Shown piece after piece: positions 6,169-29,657 of a DNA stretch of 29,657 nucleotides; position 1 is the stretch's first letter; every line of letters begins with the position of its first letter. Where the stretch lies: positions 1 through 29,657 of IMG/VR virus record IMGVR_UViG_3300030002_000088. One strand, written 5' to 3'. The stretch comes from a virus. The notes beneath the pieces were generated by a model. The model saw only the letters and a list, made by a program, of their open reading frames with translations, searched no databases and was not told the DNA's origin. Made by a program: the position numbers and the translations under genes.

Positions 6169-6963
6169 ATGGCAGATAAATTTGAATATTCAGACGAACA
6201 ATTAAAATCGTTACTCGCTGGAATTTATGCGGATGAGATTACTCAATACGATTTACCAGTTGATTTATACGAAGCAATAGTTAAACAACTCACTAGCGGA
6301 CTTTATAAAGGCTATGGCGGCAATTTAGCGGACTTTGAGGGGAAAGATTTAGAGCTTTTAAATGAGCTGAGAGAGTCAGTCTATATGTTTTCAGCCGCAA
6401 AAACCTATCAAGAGGTTGGAACTATAAGAGATTTAATGTTTGATTCAAATGGTGATTTGGTCGGACAGAGAGAATTTAATCAGTTAGGGGCTGCGACGTC
6501 CGAGAACTGGAATGACAATTGGGGCTCAACGGAATACAACACAACGATTCAGCAAGCCCAAACAGCCAGTAAATGGAATGAAATAGAAAAGAATAAGGAT
6601 TTATTGCCTTATGTCCAATTTCAAACAACTGGAGGCGGCAATGTTTGTGAAATATGCGCCCCGTTGGATGGTTTGACCGCTCGAGTAGATGATCCAATTT
6701 GGGACGAAGCAACACCCTGCTTGCATTTTAATGATGAATGTATCATTATTCAACTAGGAGAAGATGAAGCGACAGAATCAAGCAAAGAAGAAATTGATAA
6801 CATACAATCGCATATTGATGATAAGGTTTCAGACGTTTTTCGTATGAACCCAGCCAAAGATGGTTATATCTTTTCTGATGCACATCCATATTTCCAAGTT
6901 GCAGAAAAAGATGCTGCATTTGCGAAAAATAATTTTGGGTTGCCGTTGCCTGAATCAGATTAA
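6169..6963 (+). CDS. Minor head protein, Mu F-like head morphogenesis
   Basis: This 264-aa protein belongs to the Mu gpF type that binds near the portal and is needed for head assembly. The family signature is in the middle: WNDNWGSTEYNTTIQQAQ, then QTTGGGNVCEICAPLDG (CxxC), then ATPCLHFNDEC with the second Cys/His pair. The Cys/His spacing suggests a structural metal site. The C-terminus (AHPYFQVAEKDAAFAKNNF) is typical of Bacteroidota phage versions. It is shorter than Mu gpF itself. The homing endonuclease starts 17 bp downstream. Confidence 0.82.
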   Translation: MADKFEYSDEQLKSLLAGIYADEITQYDLPVDLYEAIVKQLTSGLYKGYGGNLADFEGKDLELLNELRESVYMFSAAKTYQEVGTIRDLMFDSNGDLVGQREFNQLGAATSENWNDNWGSTEYNTTIQQAQTASKWNEIEKNKDLLPYVQFQTTGGGNVCEICAPLDGLTARVDDPIWDEATPCLHFNDECIIIQLGEDEATESSKEEIDNIQSHIDDKVSDVFRMNPAKDGYIFSDAHPYFQVAEKDAAFAKNNFGLPLPESD

Positions 6964-6968
6964 TTTTG

Positions 6969-6976
6969 TATCTTTG
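6969..6976 (+). promoter_or_regulatory. TAnnTTTG promoter box of the homing endonuclease
   Basis: TATCTTTG at 6969-6976 ends only 3 bp before the ATG at 6980. With a start point about 7 bp after the box, the transcript would begin at or just inside the start codon. This would be a leaderless message, unless the gene is read from upstream transcripts. Confidence 0.5.
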
Positions 6977-6979
6977 AGT

Positions 6980-7723
6980 ATGAATAATGCATACGTTTAT
7001 AGACATATAAGGTTAGATTCTGATACAGTATTTTATATTGGTATTGGAAAGGGTCGGAATTACGAAAGAGCAAAAAGTAATCGAAGTCGAAATAAACATT
7101 GGAACGGAGTTGTAAACAAATATGGATATAAAGTTGAAATTGTCTTCGATAACCTTACATGGGAAGATGCCTGTAAGAGGGAAATTGAACAAATAAATTT
7201 ATATGGCAGAATTGACTTAGGAACTGGCACGCTTGTAAATCTATGTGATGGTGGATGGGGTGGCTCTGTTGGTAGAAAAGTTTCAGAAGAAACACGAAAA
7301 AAAATATCTGATTTTCACAAAGGCAATACATACACTTTAGGTGTAAAAAGAAGTGAAGAAACAAAAGAAAAATTAAGGATTGCCTTTAAAGGTAGGATAG
7401 TATCGGCGGAAACGAAACAAAAACTAAGTAAGGCGTTAAAAGGCAGGACAATACCAGAAGAGCAAAGAGAAAAATCATCAAAAGGTTTAATTGAATATTA
7501 TAAAACACATCAAAATCCAATGACGGGCAGGACTCACACAAAAGAAGCTCGAGAAAAAATAGGACTTGCACAAAAGGGCAAAATTGAATCCGCAGAAACG
7601 ATTCGCAAAAAAGCAGATGGGCATAGGGGAAATAAACACACACCCGAAACATTAGAAAAAATGAGTATTGCAAGAAAAGCCTATTACGCAAATAAAAAGA
7701 AACAGGAATTATCCGAAGAATAG
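6980..7723 (+). CDS. GIY-YIG homing endonuclease with NUMOD3-type repeats
   Basis: This 247-aa free-standing endonuclease is expected to cut phage DNA lacking the gene and so promote its own spread. The GIY-YIG domain covers residues 5-90: YVYRHIR, then FYIGIGKG (18-25), Arg/Asn-rich RSRNKHW, probable catalytic Glu68 in REIEQINLYGR, and LVNLCDGGWGG. The rest is about seven tandem DNA-binding NUMOD3-like repeats (core G-x-x-h-S-x-E-T-x-x-K-h), from residue 98 to 234. I start at 6980 because the GIY strand begins at Tyr5 and upstream codons overlap the head gene. It splits the head genes and carries its own promoter box. Confidence 0.88.
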   Translation: MNNAYVYRHIRLDSDTVFYIGIGKGRNYERAKSNRSRNKHWNGVVNKYGYKVEIVFDNLTWEDACKREIEQINLYGRIDLGTGTLVNLCDGGWGGSVGRKVSEETRKKISDFHKGNTYTLGVKRSEETKEKLRIAFKGRIVSAETKQKLSKALKGRTIPEEQREKSSKGLIEYYKTHQNPMTGRTHTKEAREKIGLAQKGKIESAETIRKKADGHRGNKHTPETLEKMSIARKAYYANKKKQELSEE

Positions 7724-27674: not shown

Positions 27675-27710
27675 TTCATGTTTTCGTACATAGTTTTAAG
27701 GTTAATCGAT

Positions 27711-27748
27711 AATATCAGCTGCTTGTGAAAGTAGTTGATATTTTTTTT
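27711..27748 (+). terminator. Strong Rho-independent terminator ending the late operon
   Basis: ATATCAGCTGCTT (27712-27724) pairs with AAGTAGTTGATAT (27729-27741) over 13 bp with two G-T pairs and tetraloop GTGA, followed by a run of eight T (27741-27748). It closes the lysis and virion transcription unit. Confidence 0.9.
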
Positions 27749-27758
27749 GTTCAAAAGA

Positions 27759-27788
27759 TTGTTTATTTGAAAACTTGTTTTATCTTTG
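27759..27788 (+). promoter_or_regulatory. Promoter of the structured RNA candidate
   Basis: A -7 box TATCTTTG at 27781-27788 has a TTG at 27759-27761, 19 bp upstream, the usual Bacteroidota -33/-7 spacing. The promoter starts 10 bp after the late-operon terminator, so it is independent of it. Transcription should begin near 27794-27796. Confidence 0.6.
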
Positions 27789-27789
27789 T

Positions 27790-27886
27790 AGCACAATTCG
27801 AGGGTGAGAGCTTGAATTTATTCATGCTTTCCCTCGTTTTTGTGTAAAACCTCGAAGCGTATCTCACCCCGCTTTGGGGTTTTTTC
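27790..27886 (+). ncRNA. Candidate structured small RNA or attenuator, about 95 nt
   Basis: A long hairpin is built from CACAA (27792-27796)/TTGTG (27840-27844), CGAGGG (27799-27804)/CCCTCG (27831-27836), AGC/GCT and TGAA/TTCA around a short loop. A terminator follows: ACCCC (27866-27870)/GGGGT (27876-27880) then T-run to 27885. GGGTGAGA (27802-27809) is also perfectly complementary to TCTCACCC (27862-27869), a pairing that excludes both hairpins. The unit has its own promoter and no convincing ORF. It matches no RNA class I know. It may act in trans, or control read-through toward the gene at 28238. Confidence 0.6.
27866..27886 (+). terminator. Terminator of the RNA candidate
   Basis: ACCCC/GGGGT forms a 5-bp stem with loop GCTTT followed by six T (27880-27885). 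Its 5' arm overlaps TCTCACCC, which can pair with 27802-27809 instead. Confidence 0.7.
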
Positions 27887-28237
27887 ATTTTATGCCATTA
27901 ATCCATTTGGCAATCCACAAAATGATATTTGAGTTTTAATTCATACTCAAAATAGTTTAGACAATTTGAACTATAAGAAAAATGATTGAGTAGTATAATC
28001 CATAACGCAAATAGCCCGCAATGTCCCACAACTGACGAACACAACTGATTAAATGAATACGTTATGCCATGTGGAGATGGGTCGGTTATACTGCTTTGTG
28101 TGAGCCAAAATTGTTTTTAAAGGCTTATTCATACTACATTCTTAATTGTTTGGATATCGAACACTAAGAGTTGTGGAGATAATGTTGCATATCTATTAAT
28201 AGTTAAATATAAATTATTCACTTTAAATTAAAAAAAC
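27887..28237. other. Non-coding stretch with several repeats
   Basis: No ORF with coding character is seen. The stretch has an inverted repeat TTTGAGT (27928-27934)/ACTCAAA (27945-27951), an isolated TTAGAC (27957-27962), a CATAACG...CGTTATG element (28001-28066), and the palindrome CTATTAATAG (28193-28202) about 36 bp before the next ATG. There is no clear TAnnTTTG box for that gene. Confidence 0.5.
28001..28066. repeat. CATAACG...CGTTATG inverted-repeat element A (attC-like ends)
   Basis: Perfect 7-bp ends CATAACG (28001-28007) and CGTTATG (28060-28066) enclose 52 bp. Inside is a direct tandem of 13-bp units, CACAACTGACGAA (28027-28039) and CACAACTGATTAA (28040-28052). The AAC/GTT ends and size resemble a short integron attC site, but the inner arms pair poorly. 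Confidence 0.45.
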
Positions 28238-28882
28238 ATGAACACTTACTCTAAATTTACAGCAAACGTTTTTATTGCAAAATGCACTGAAAAACACGAA
28301 AAGGGAGAAACTATTTTAGTCGAAACGAAGTACGGAAAAGAAAATGAATGTATCGTCTTTAATCTCATGGGCGAAACGAAAGAGGGATTTTACTTTTATT
28401 CAATTGTCCGGGCTGACGGGTTTAACGCTCAGGAATTTGCAAAACGTAAAATTGAAAGACTTCAAACCGCTTCATCAAATGCAGAAAATAAAAGCGATTC
28501 TTATTGGAAAGCATCGCACGAAGGAGCTGATTTTCTCGCACTGGGCGAACCTATTAAAGCAGGACACCATTCGGAACGCAGACACCGGGCACCAATCGAA
28601 CGTAACCACAATAGAATGAGTAAAGCTGTTGAATTGTCAGAAAAAGCAAAGGGATATGATGATAGGGTTGCGTATTGGGCAAATAAAGCACTCACAATTA
28701 ATTTGTCAATGCCGGAAAGTTTGGAGTTTTACGAATTTGAACTTGAAAAAGCAAAAGTAAAGCACGAAGGATTAAAAAATGGAACTATTGAAAGATCACA
28801 TTCTTTTTCATTGACCTACGCAAAAAAGGAATTAAACGATATTGAAGCTAAATTAAAACTAGCCAATAAACTTTGGGCATAA
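28238..28882 (+). CDS. DUF3560 family protein
   Basis: This 214-aa protein has the DUF3560 signature: ERLQTASSNAENKSDSYWKA, then GEPIKAGHHSERRHRAPIER, NHNRMSKAVELSEKAKGYDD and a C-terminal helix pair. DUF3560 proteins are widespread on plasmids, conjugative elements and phages; their biochemical role is not settled. The N-terminal 60 residues are beta-rich and hydrophilic, and the C-terminal third is coiled-coil-like (YEFELEKAKVKHEGLKNG). A terminator follows at once, so the gene is probably its own transcription unit. It is not linked to virion assembly. Confidence 0.78.
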   Translation: MNTYSKFTANVFIAKCTEKHEKGETILVETKYGKENECIVFNLMGETKEGFYFYSIVRADGFNAQEFAKRKIERLQTASSNAENKSDSYWKASHEGADFLALGEPIKAGHHSERRHRAPIERNHNRMSKAVELSEKAKGYDDRVAYWANKALTINLSMPESLEFYEFELEKAKVKHEGLKNGTIERSHSFSLTYAKKELNDIEAKLKLANKLWA

Positions 28883-29011: not shown

Positions 29012-29142
29012 CATAACGGCATATTTCTATGTGCAATAGCCCAAATGCGGGAACTTCGCTTTAGTAATTCGATGTCGTTCATGCGGAAGTATAGCCTCCA
29101 AATACCACGTCAGCGGGCTGATTTGCTTAGGAGTGTGTTATG
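29012..29142. repeat. CATAAC...GTTATG imperfect inverted repeat B (attC-like)
   Basis: Ends CATAAC (29012-29017) and GTTATG (29137-29142) are perfect inverted repeats. An inner arm GCAA-T-AGCCC (29033-29042) pairs with GGGCT-GAT-TTGC (29115-29125, with unpaired bases). Unpaired bases in otherwise complementary arms are a feature of attC sites. It is 131 bp long and noncoding, and contains AAATGCGGGA, also present in element C. Confidence 0.5.
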
Positions 29143-29186
29143 CGCTTGCATTTCTTTCTTAAATTATCCATTCAAAAAAAATAAAT

Positions 29187-29530: not shown

Positions 29531-29657
29531 CATAACGCATACAGCCATGAGCATGTGGCGAAATGCGGGAGCTGACTTGTCAGACAGGCGATGAAGCCAA
29601 TGCGGGTGGCAAACCTCCGAAATGCGATGAACTCGCCACTGATTATGGGTGCATGTT
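29531..29657. repeat. Imperfect inverted repeat C (attC-like), cut by the window end
   Basis: Starting 5 bp after the gene stop, CATAACGCATACAGCCATGA pairs imperfectly with TATGGGTGCATGTT (29644-29657). The inner arm GTGGCGA (29555-29561) pairs perfectly with TCGCCAC (29633-29639). The segment is clearly GC-richer than the phage genes. The right end stops at GTT, so the final ATG expected by comparison with elements A and B would fall outside the window. Confidence 0.5.

Follow-up and report, generated by a model that had tools for sequence, protein, structure and literature searches.

A putative family of kissing-loop terminator RNAs in the replication-module leaders of Bacteroidota phages

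Bacteroidota are dominant bacteria in the gut, in freshwater and in the sea, and RNA regulation in their phages seems, in our impression, to be poorly known. The phage element described here, a short leader RNA whose terminator loop is complementary to the loop of a preceding hairpin, can be set against several described systems. Terminator-type riboswitches and T-boxes place a 5' structure and an intrinsic terminator between a promoter and a gene, and some aptamers contain kissing loops; the phage element, in contrast, has neither a conserved aptamer nor a match in Rfam, and its loops are free to vary provided that they remain complementary. The put RNA of phage HK022 is a leader of two hairpins transcribed right after an early promoter, which targets RNA polymerase without being a terminator of its own; we know of no description of loop-loop complementarity in put, and its likeness to the phage element as a two-hairpin leader was judged by description. 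The small pRNA of phage phi29 likewise has complementary loops, but these pair between molecules in the packaging ring, whereas one loop of the phage element lies in a terminator before replication genes. Antisense RNAs also attenuate the transcription of plasmid replication genes, as in pT181 and pAMbeta1. In a further plasmid of this type, pIP501, the antisense RNAIII controls repR by loop-loop-dependent attenuation within the repR leader (PMC4981023). Like the phage element, this system combines the leader of a replication-initiation gene, an intrinsic terminator in that leader and complementary hairpin loops. However, the pIP501 partners reside in separate RNAs from opposite strands, while the phage element holds both in one short RNA, one of them being the terminator loop. 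Although its single parts are known, the use of a terminator loop as kissing partner in a phage replication leader is, to our knowledge, a combination not known from elsewhere, and no description of the element was found in the open-access literature searched, subscription papers and preprints lying outside the search.

The element was recognised in a 29.7-kb viral contig (29,657 nucleotides), analysed over its whole length and referred to below as the window. At the gathering thresholds of Rfam 15, the window, two uncultivated phages with the same layout (L151 and L158) and the loci of six other members gave no match except one tRNA, in agreement with the original prediction, which knew of no family with such a layout. 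Three Bacteroidota small RNAs, FopS, GibS and BTnc231, matched weakly near the RNA (26.6, 20.5, and 12.9-14.2 bits against gathering scores of 56, 115, and 80.4, respectively), and these matches fall mostly on the upstream terminator (27678-27750).

The structured RNA and its setting in the window

The window encodes a Mu-type head and a contractile tail module (Mu-like portal, DUF2586 sheath), and the relatives of its sheath are found in Winoviridae phages of Flavobacterium and Winogradskyella. A NUMOD3 homing-endonuclease-like gene (6860-7723) overlaps the end of the Mu F-like head gene. At the end of the late region, an endolysin gene is followed by a small lipoprotein-like gene, an intrinsic terminator, a promoter and the structured RNA (Table 1); a close relative, L002, has a different terminator at the position matching the upstream one. 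Since the -7 consensus of Flavobacterium sigma-A, TAnnTTTG, spans -12 to -5 (PMC9723704), the +1 of the transcript is expected near 27793.

Table 1. Features of the RNA locus in the window, with positions, strand and basis or remarks.
Feature	Position	Strand	Basis or remark
Intrinsic terminator preceding the RNA, after the lysis/late operon	27711-27742	+	14-bp stem and U-tract
Sigma-A type Bacteroidota promoter, TTG-N19-TATCTTTG	27759-27788	+	TTG 27759-27761, N19, TATCTTTG 27781-27788
Predicted RNA, about 94 nt	27793-27886	+	Fold and promoter position
Alternative longer 5' hairpin (predicted MFE)	27791-27845	+	Would bury GGGTGAGA in its 5' arm; peculiar to the window copy
HP1, 8-bp hairpin AATTCGAG[GGTGAGAG]CTTGAATT	27795-27818	+	GGTGAGA in loop; form seen in relatives
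5' kissing segment GGGTGAGA	27802-27809	+	Exact complement of TCTCACCC
HP2, terminator hairpin, 14-bp stem and 10-nt loop TATCTCACCC	27846-27883	+	Arms 27846-27859 / 27870-27883
3' kissing segment TCTCACCC	27862-27869	+	In the terminator (HP2) loop
Terminator U-tract	27880-27885	+	Sequence
15-codon ORF MPLIHLAIHKMIFEF	27892-27939	+	Starts +9 from the terminator, a spacing at which other members have a real gene
DUF3560 ORF, first real ORF downstream	28238-28882	+	About 350 nt from the RNA

The original prediction, a structured RNA of about 95 nt with its own promoter between two terminators and with two perfectly complementary segments, stood in these respects. The promoter, the flanking terminators and the exact complement are all present in the sequence, and the region folded to -42.1 kcal/mol compared with a shuffle mean of -20.9 (z = -7.0). 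Each of the two 8-nt segments is found a single time on the + strand of the window, against a chance expectation of 0.27 matches, and two matches to the 8-mer were reached in 5 of 100 shuffles. What had to be revised was the anatomy of the terminator, which had been placed at 27866-27885. The 6-bp hairpin at 27866-27880 has a pair probability of 0.0 in the partition function, while the stem of HP2 pairs with probabilities of 0.70-1.0. Since TCTCACCC thus forms the loop of HP2 and not the 5' arm of a terminator, its pairing with GGGTGAGA would be loop-to-loop and leave the terminator stem intact, contrary to the proposal that this pairing removes that arm. The nested switch originally proposed was rejected, as the GGGTGAGA/TCTCACCC pairing in an ordinary nested fold is 17.7 kcal/mol worse than the MFE.

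The long interrupted hairpin of the original prediction does appear at the 5' side of the predicted MFE; relatives, however, use the HP1-type form, and the long hairpin is absent from L151 and L158. Folded from 27793, the nested MFE is -37.2 kcal/mol against -24.7 kcal/mol for the HP1 state with the loop-loop helix uncounted, and the longer hairpin is 11-16 kcal/mol stabler than HP1 before that helix is considered. As the helix alone is worth about -10 kcal/mol by a rough estimate, the two states may be close in energy in the window copy. Mutual exclusion, which had been proposed for the hairpins, is possible between the long 5' hairpin and the loop pairing in this copy alone, and does not extend to disruption of the terminator.

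The loop TATCTCACCC was also considered as a conserved motif in its own right and rejected: it gave 119 matches in viral contigs and 19 in bacterial genomes, the latter without a long hairpin. It lies in hairpins in two other records, L109 (8-bp stem, within background) and L033 (14-bp stem), both probably by coincidence. The L033 hairpin (171-188, - strand), located just upstream of an HNH-like gene in a high-GC phage, shares the 10-nt loop and the GCG/CGC closing pairs with the window terminator and is the longest of its kind among 18,598 positions.

Relatives and covariation of the loop pair

A search pattern containing both complementary segments retrieved L151 (also L153) and L158, which are uncultivated AT-rich phages sharing the layout of the window: a TATATTTG promoter, a GAAG[GGUGAGAA]CUUC hairpin, a short linker and a terminator hairpin with loop AAUCUCACCC. 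Cultured isolates were reached by tblastn with a gene downstream of the element in L158. When the corresponding gaps were inspected in Cellulophaga phi19:3 and phi13:2, Polaribacter Danklef_1 and Flavobacterium elemoA, the layout proved to be kept, with loops that are wholly different yet complementary. We then scanned 1.04 Mb for a TAnnTTTG box in intergenic position followed by a terminator hairpin and scored pairing of at least 6 bp with at least 3 GC. Twelve of the 29 candidates were complementary, against 1.0 expected when each 5' end was paired with the loops of other phages' elements; kissing was here both found and scored by complementarity, which this cross-pairing control handles only statistically. 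When four decoy motifs took the place of the promoter box, the scanner recovered no elements beyond those already known, and 1.72 Mb of other phage loci yielded no element.

An extended scan covered 1.74 Mb in 34 records, mostly Bacteroidota phages, and compared the RNA start with the interior of the terminator hairpin at a threshold of at least 7 bp with at least 3 GC. Among 99 candidates with promoter and terminator, 15 were complementary, compared with 1.25 expected from pairing 5' ends with the loops of other elements; two of the 15 are near-identical, and the lotta8 match (AAGCGCTT, self-complementary and at +35) is probably due to chance and was not counted as a member. A 6-bp match in B124-14 was likewise not counted. 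When the promoter was dropped as a requirement, 825 intergenic terminators gave 49 matches against 22.6 expected, recovering the same elements as well as one in Polaribacter P12002L. The two elements of hemulen9-1 are also present in Sniff9-2. No element was found in these scans in the nearest relatives of the window phage (the Winoviridae FPSV-S1, lotta8 and Peternella, and L002), and a 159-kb Spirosoma plasmid yielded no candidate whose promoter was correctly spaced.

In total, 15 phages, which are uncultivated or infect Cellulophaga, Flavobacterium or Polaribacter, carry 12 distinct loop pairs: GGGUGAGA, CUCUCACAA, CCUUCAC, CUUCUGAC, GUACGAC, GUCGUCG, GUGAGACG, GGUGGAA, UGAGAGC, CGGGCAGG, CAUCCAC, and GGUCGUAG. 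Because the letters differ on both sides while complementarity persists, the loop pairing covaries, and by this criterion a function of the loop complementarity is supported. Covariation of both pairings had been named in the original prediction as a check to make; the loop-loop pairing thus varies in concert across the 12 pairs, while the long 5' hairpin does not recur in L151 or L158. An alignment of 15 elements revealed no conserved core apart from the AU-rich linker. Blastn against phages and plasmids gave chance matches only, and neither of two covariance models (R1 and R2) turned up a convincing relative, apart from the sequences used to train it and, in the case of R1, matches already selected by its loop. 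Since the sequence of the element is not conserved, homology searches based on it fail.

In every element accepted in the extended scan, the pairing segment begins +9 to +14 nt from the -7 box, the window copy lying at +13 with a loop pair of 8 bp (GGGUGAGA/UCUCACCC) where the family threshold is at least 7 bp. The HP1 stem is only 3-4 bp in a few members. An internal loop separating an outer stem from a kissing stem in HP2 is visible in L151, L158 and, by inspection, most other members, and is lacking from the continuous 14-bp stem of the window. Some U-tracts are weak, e.g., CUUUUCGC in L158, so that termination may be partial. The linker between HP1 and HP2 often carries an AU-rich motif like AAAAATATT (e.g., in L277 and L310), a possible binding site for the U-tail or for a protein. 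Three genomes (phi19:3, phi18:3, and hemulen9-1) each hold two elements with different loops.

Genes behind the element

In all 14 other phages, a copy of the element lies in the leader of the replication module, either directly or one small or homing-endonuclease gene away, the module of Danklef_1 being assigned from Freya_8 because their RNAs are identical; the Danklef_1 copy precedes a GIY-YIG-like gene and the Freya_8 copy a replication gene. The first or second gene behind the RNA encodes a DUF6291/phrog_19415 protein in phi19:3, hemulen9-1, 11b, elemoA and L158, a DnaD-like loader or replisome organiser in phi18:3 and Freya_8, a replication initiation protein in FCL-2, a primosomal protein in phi19:1 and a primase-helicase in L151; in P12002L, the downstream protein was judged by inspection to resemble a helix-turn-helix replication protein. 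Outside the window, nearly every member has, by inspection, an ORF beginning 5-52 nt past its terminator, and no TAnnTTTG box intervenes. The second elements precede other genes, a YopX-like gene (by inspection) in phi19:3 and a NUMOD4/HNH-like gene in hemulen9-1.

Homing-endonuclease genes (NUMOD4/HNH or GIY-YIG-like) stand directly behind the RNA in several records (L158, 10967-11464; L252, downstream of 9065; L264, downstream of 13734). In L158, where the gene is of the NUMOD4-HNH type, and apparently in Danklef_1, such a gene separates the RNA from the replication module, so that the leader looks like a favoured insertion point. In hemulen9-1, phi18:3 and phi19:1, the gene that separates the RNA from the replication gene encodes a small protein of ~70 aa; the three proteins look alike and share an LDVSTAIRLAK-like segment (L264, 14915-15124; L310, 2820-3026, - strand; L277, 10495-10710).

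The window copy is an outlier. Promoter, pairing position, loop pairing and terminator are all present; however, HP2 has no internal loop, the linker is longer, a 5' hairpin competes with HP1, and the start codon found 5-52 nt after the terminator in other members is represented by that of a 15-codon ORF, which is probably not a gene. No replication module was recognised within the contig, which ends at 29657. Around the DUF3560 gene and a 112-aa ORF lie three repeats (28000-28067, 29013-29144, and 29531-29657) that resemble integron attC sites, having CATAAC...GTTATG ends and complementary arms further inside; the contig stops inside the third, which is complete in the related phage record G001 (L242). 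Their single-strand folding was no better than that of shuffles, so their identity as attC sites is unproven. Since one of them lies between the RNA with its 15-codon ORF and the DUF3560 gene, inserted cassettes may have split the leader from the gene it formerly preceded. The window copy probably yields a short RNA only, or else controls the DUF3560 genes behind it.

Proposed mechanism and its alternatives

We favour, with a probability of about 0.6, the reading that the family is a transcription attenuator with a kissing-loop terminator, i.e., a leader RNA of Bacteroidota phages, because the terminator sits just before the start codon of genes that the phage must express. This attenuator logic was part of the original prediction and fits the relatives; a metabolite riboswitch, which had been suggested alongside it, does not, there being no conserved sequence core and the loops varying freely while matching each other. 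Each element would begin with a sigma-A promoter and a small HP1, the loop of which is found 9-14 nt past the -7 box, and continue through a short AU-rich linker to the HP2 terminator. The apical loop of HP2 is the exact complement of that of HP1; the two are predicted to kiss, their pairing being kept by compensatory change. Transcripts from the promoter would stop at HP2 unless HP2 is delayed or bypassed. HP1, made first, could capture the nascent HP2 loop at the polymerase exit and thereby set the fraction of read-through, although we infer both the direction and the size of the effect: closure of HP2 might be delayed, giving more read-through, or pre-organised, giving less. In this manner, the element probably sets how often the replication genes behind it are switched on. 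The released RNA of ~95 nt might, by way of these loops, also affect nascent leaders in trans.

This last property leads to a tentative and rather unlikely alternative, in which the RNA controls copy number by sensing itself: terminated RNA would scale with the number of phage genomes, kiss nascent leaders and favour termination before the replication genes, its HP2 loop pairing with a nascent HP1 and the reverse, by analogy with plasmid antisense RNAs. The location before replication-initiation genes in the 14 other phages (with the Danklef_1 module assigned as above) is consistent with such control, as are the element-specific loops, by which each RNA would recognise only itself, and the presence of two differently looped elements in phi19:3, phi18:3, and hemulen9-1; loop-loop-dependent attenuation of repR by pIP501 RNAIII provides a precedent (PMC4981023). 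It would require no antisense gene on the opposite strand. However, pairing within one molecule would compete strongly, and lytic phages have no obvious need for copy control. If true, a one-RNA feedback device, whose short terminated RNA would recognise nascent leaders of the gene that it precedes, would let the number of phage genomes control replication genes via matched kissing loops, and free divergence of these loops would give many mutually independent versions, even two per genome. We consider such a device improbable.

Somewhat more doubtful is a stand-alone small regulatory RNA, released at a complete terminator, whose terminator loop pairs with host or phage mRNAs and is capped by HP1. 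The window copy, with no close downstream gene, a strong terminator and a stable fold, would suit this role, and C-rich loops are frequent as seeds of small RNAs; yet the loops of members vary freely, the window contains no other match to its loop, and elsewhere the element is conserved as a leader of replication genes. That the locus is a double terminator insulating the late operon, with a fortuitous promoter and complementarity, is very improbable after the scans, for although tandem terminators are common and the window copy directly follows the lysis genes, 12 covarying loop pairs lie at a fixed distance from the promoter.

Judged from its sequences, the proposed kissing-loop attenuator is an undescribed RNA family of Bacteroidota viruses. 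Since several host-phage pairs are in culture, compensatory mutation is a practical test, made easy by loops that are matched yet vary freely; the same property could make them independent terminator switches for the engineering of Bacteroidota. The element is common to unrelated phages of Cellulophaga, Flavobacterium and Polaribacter whose replication genes are diverse, which suggests that it represents a shared regulatory solution for DNA replication.
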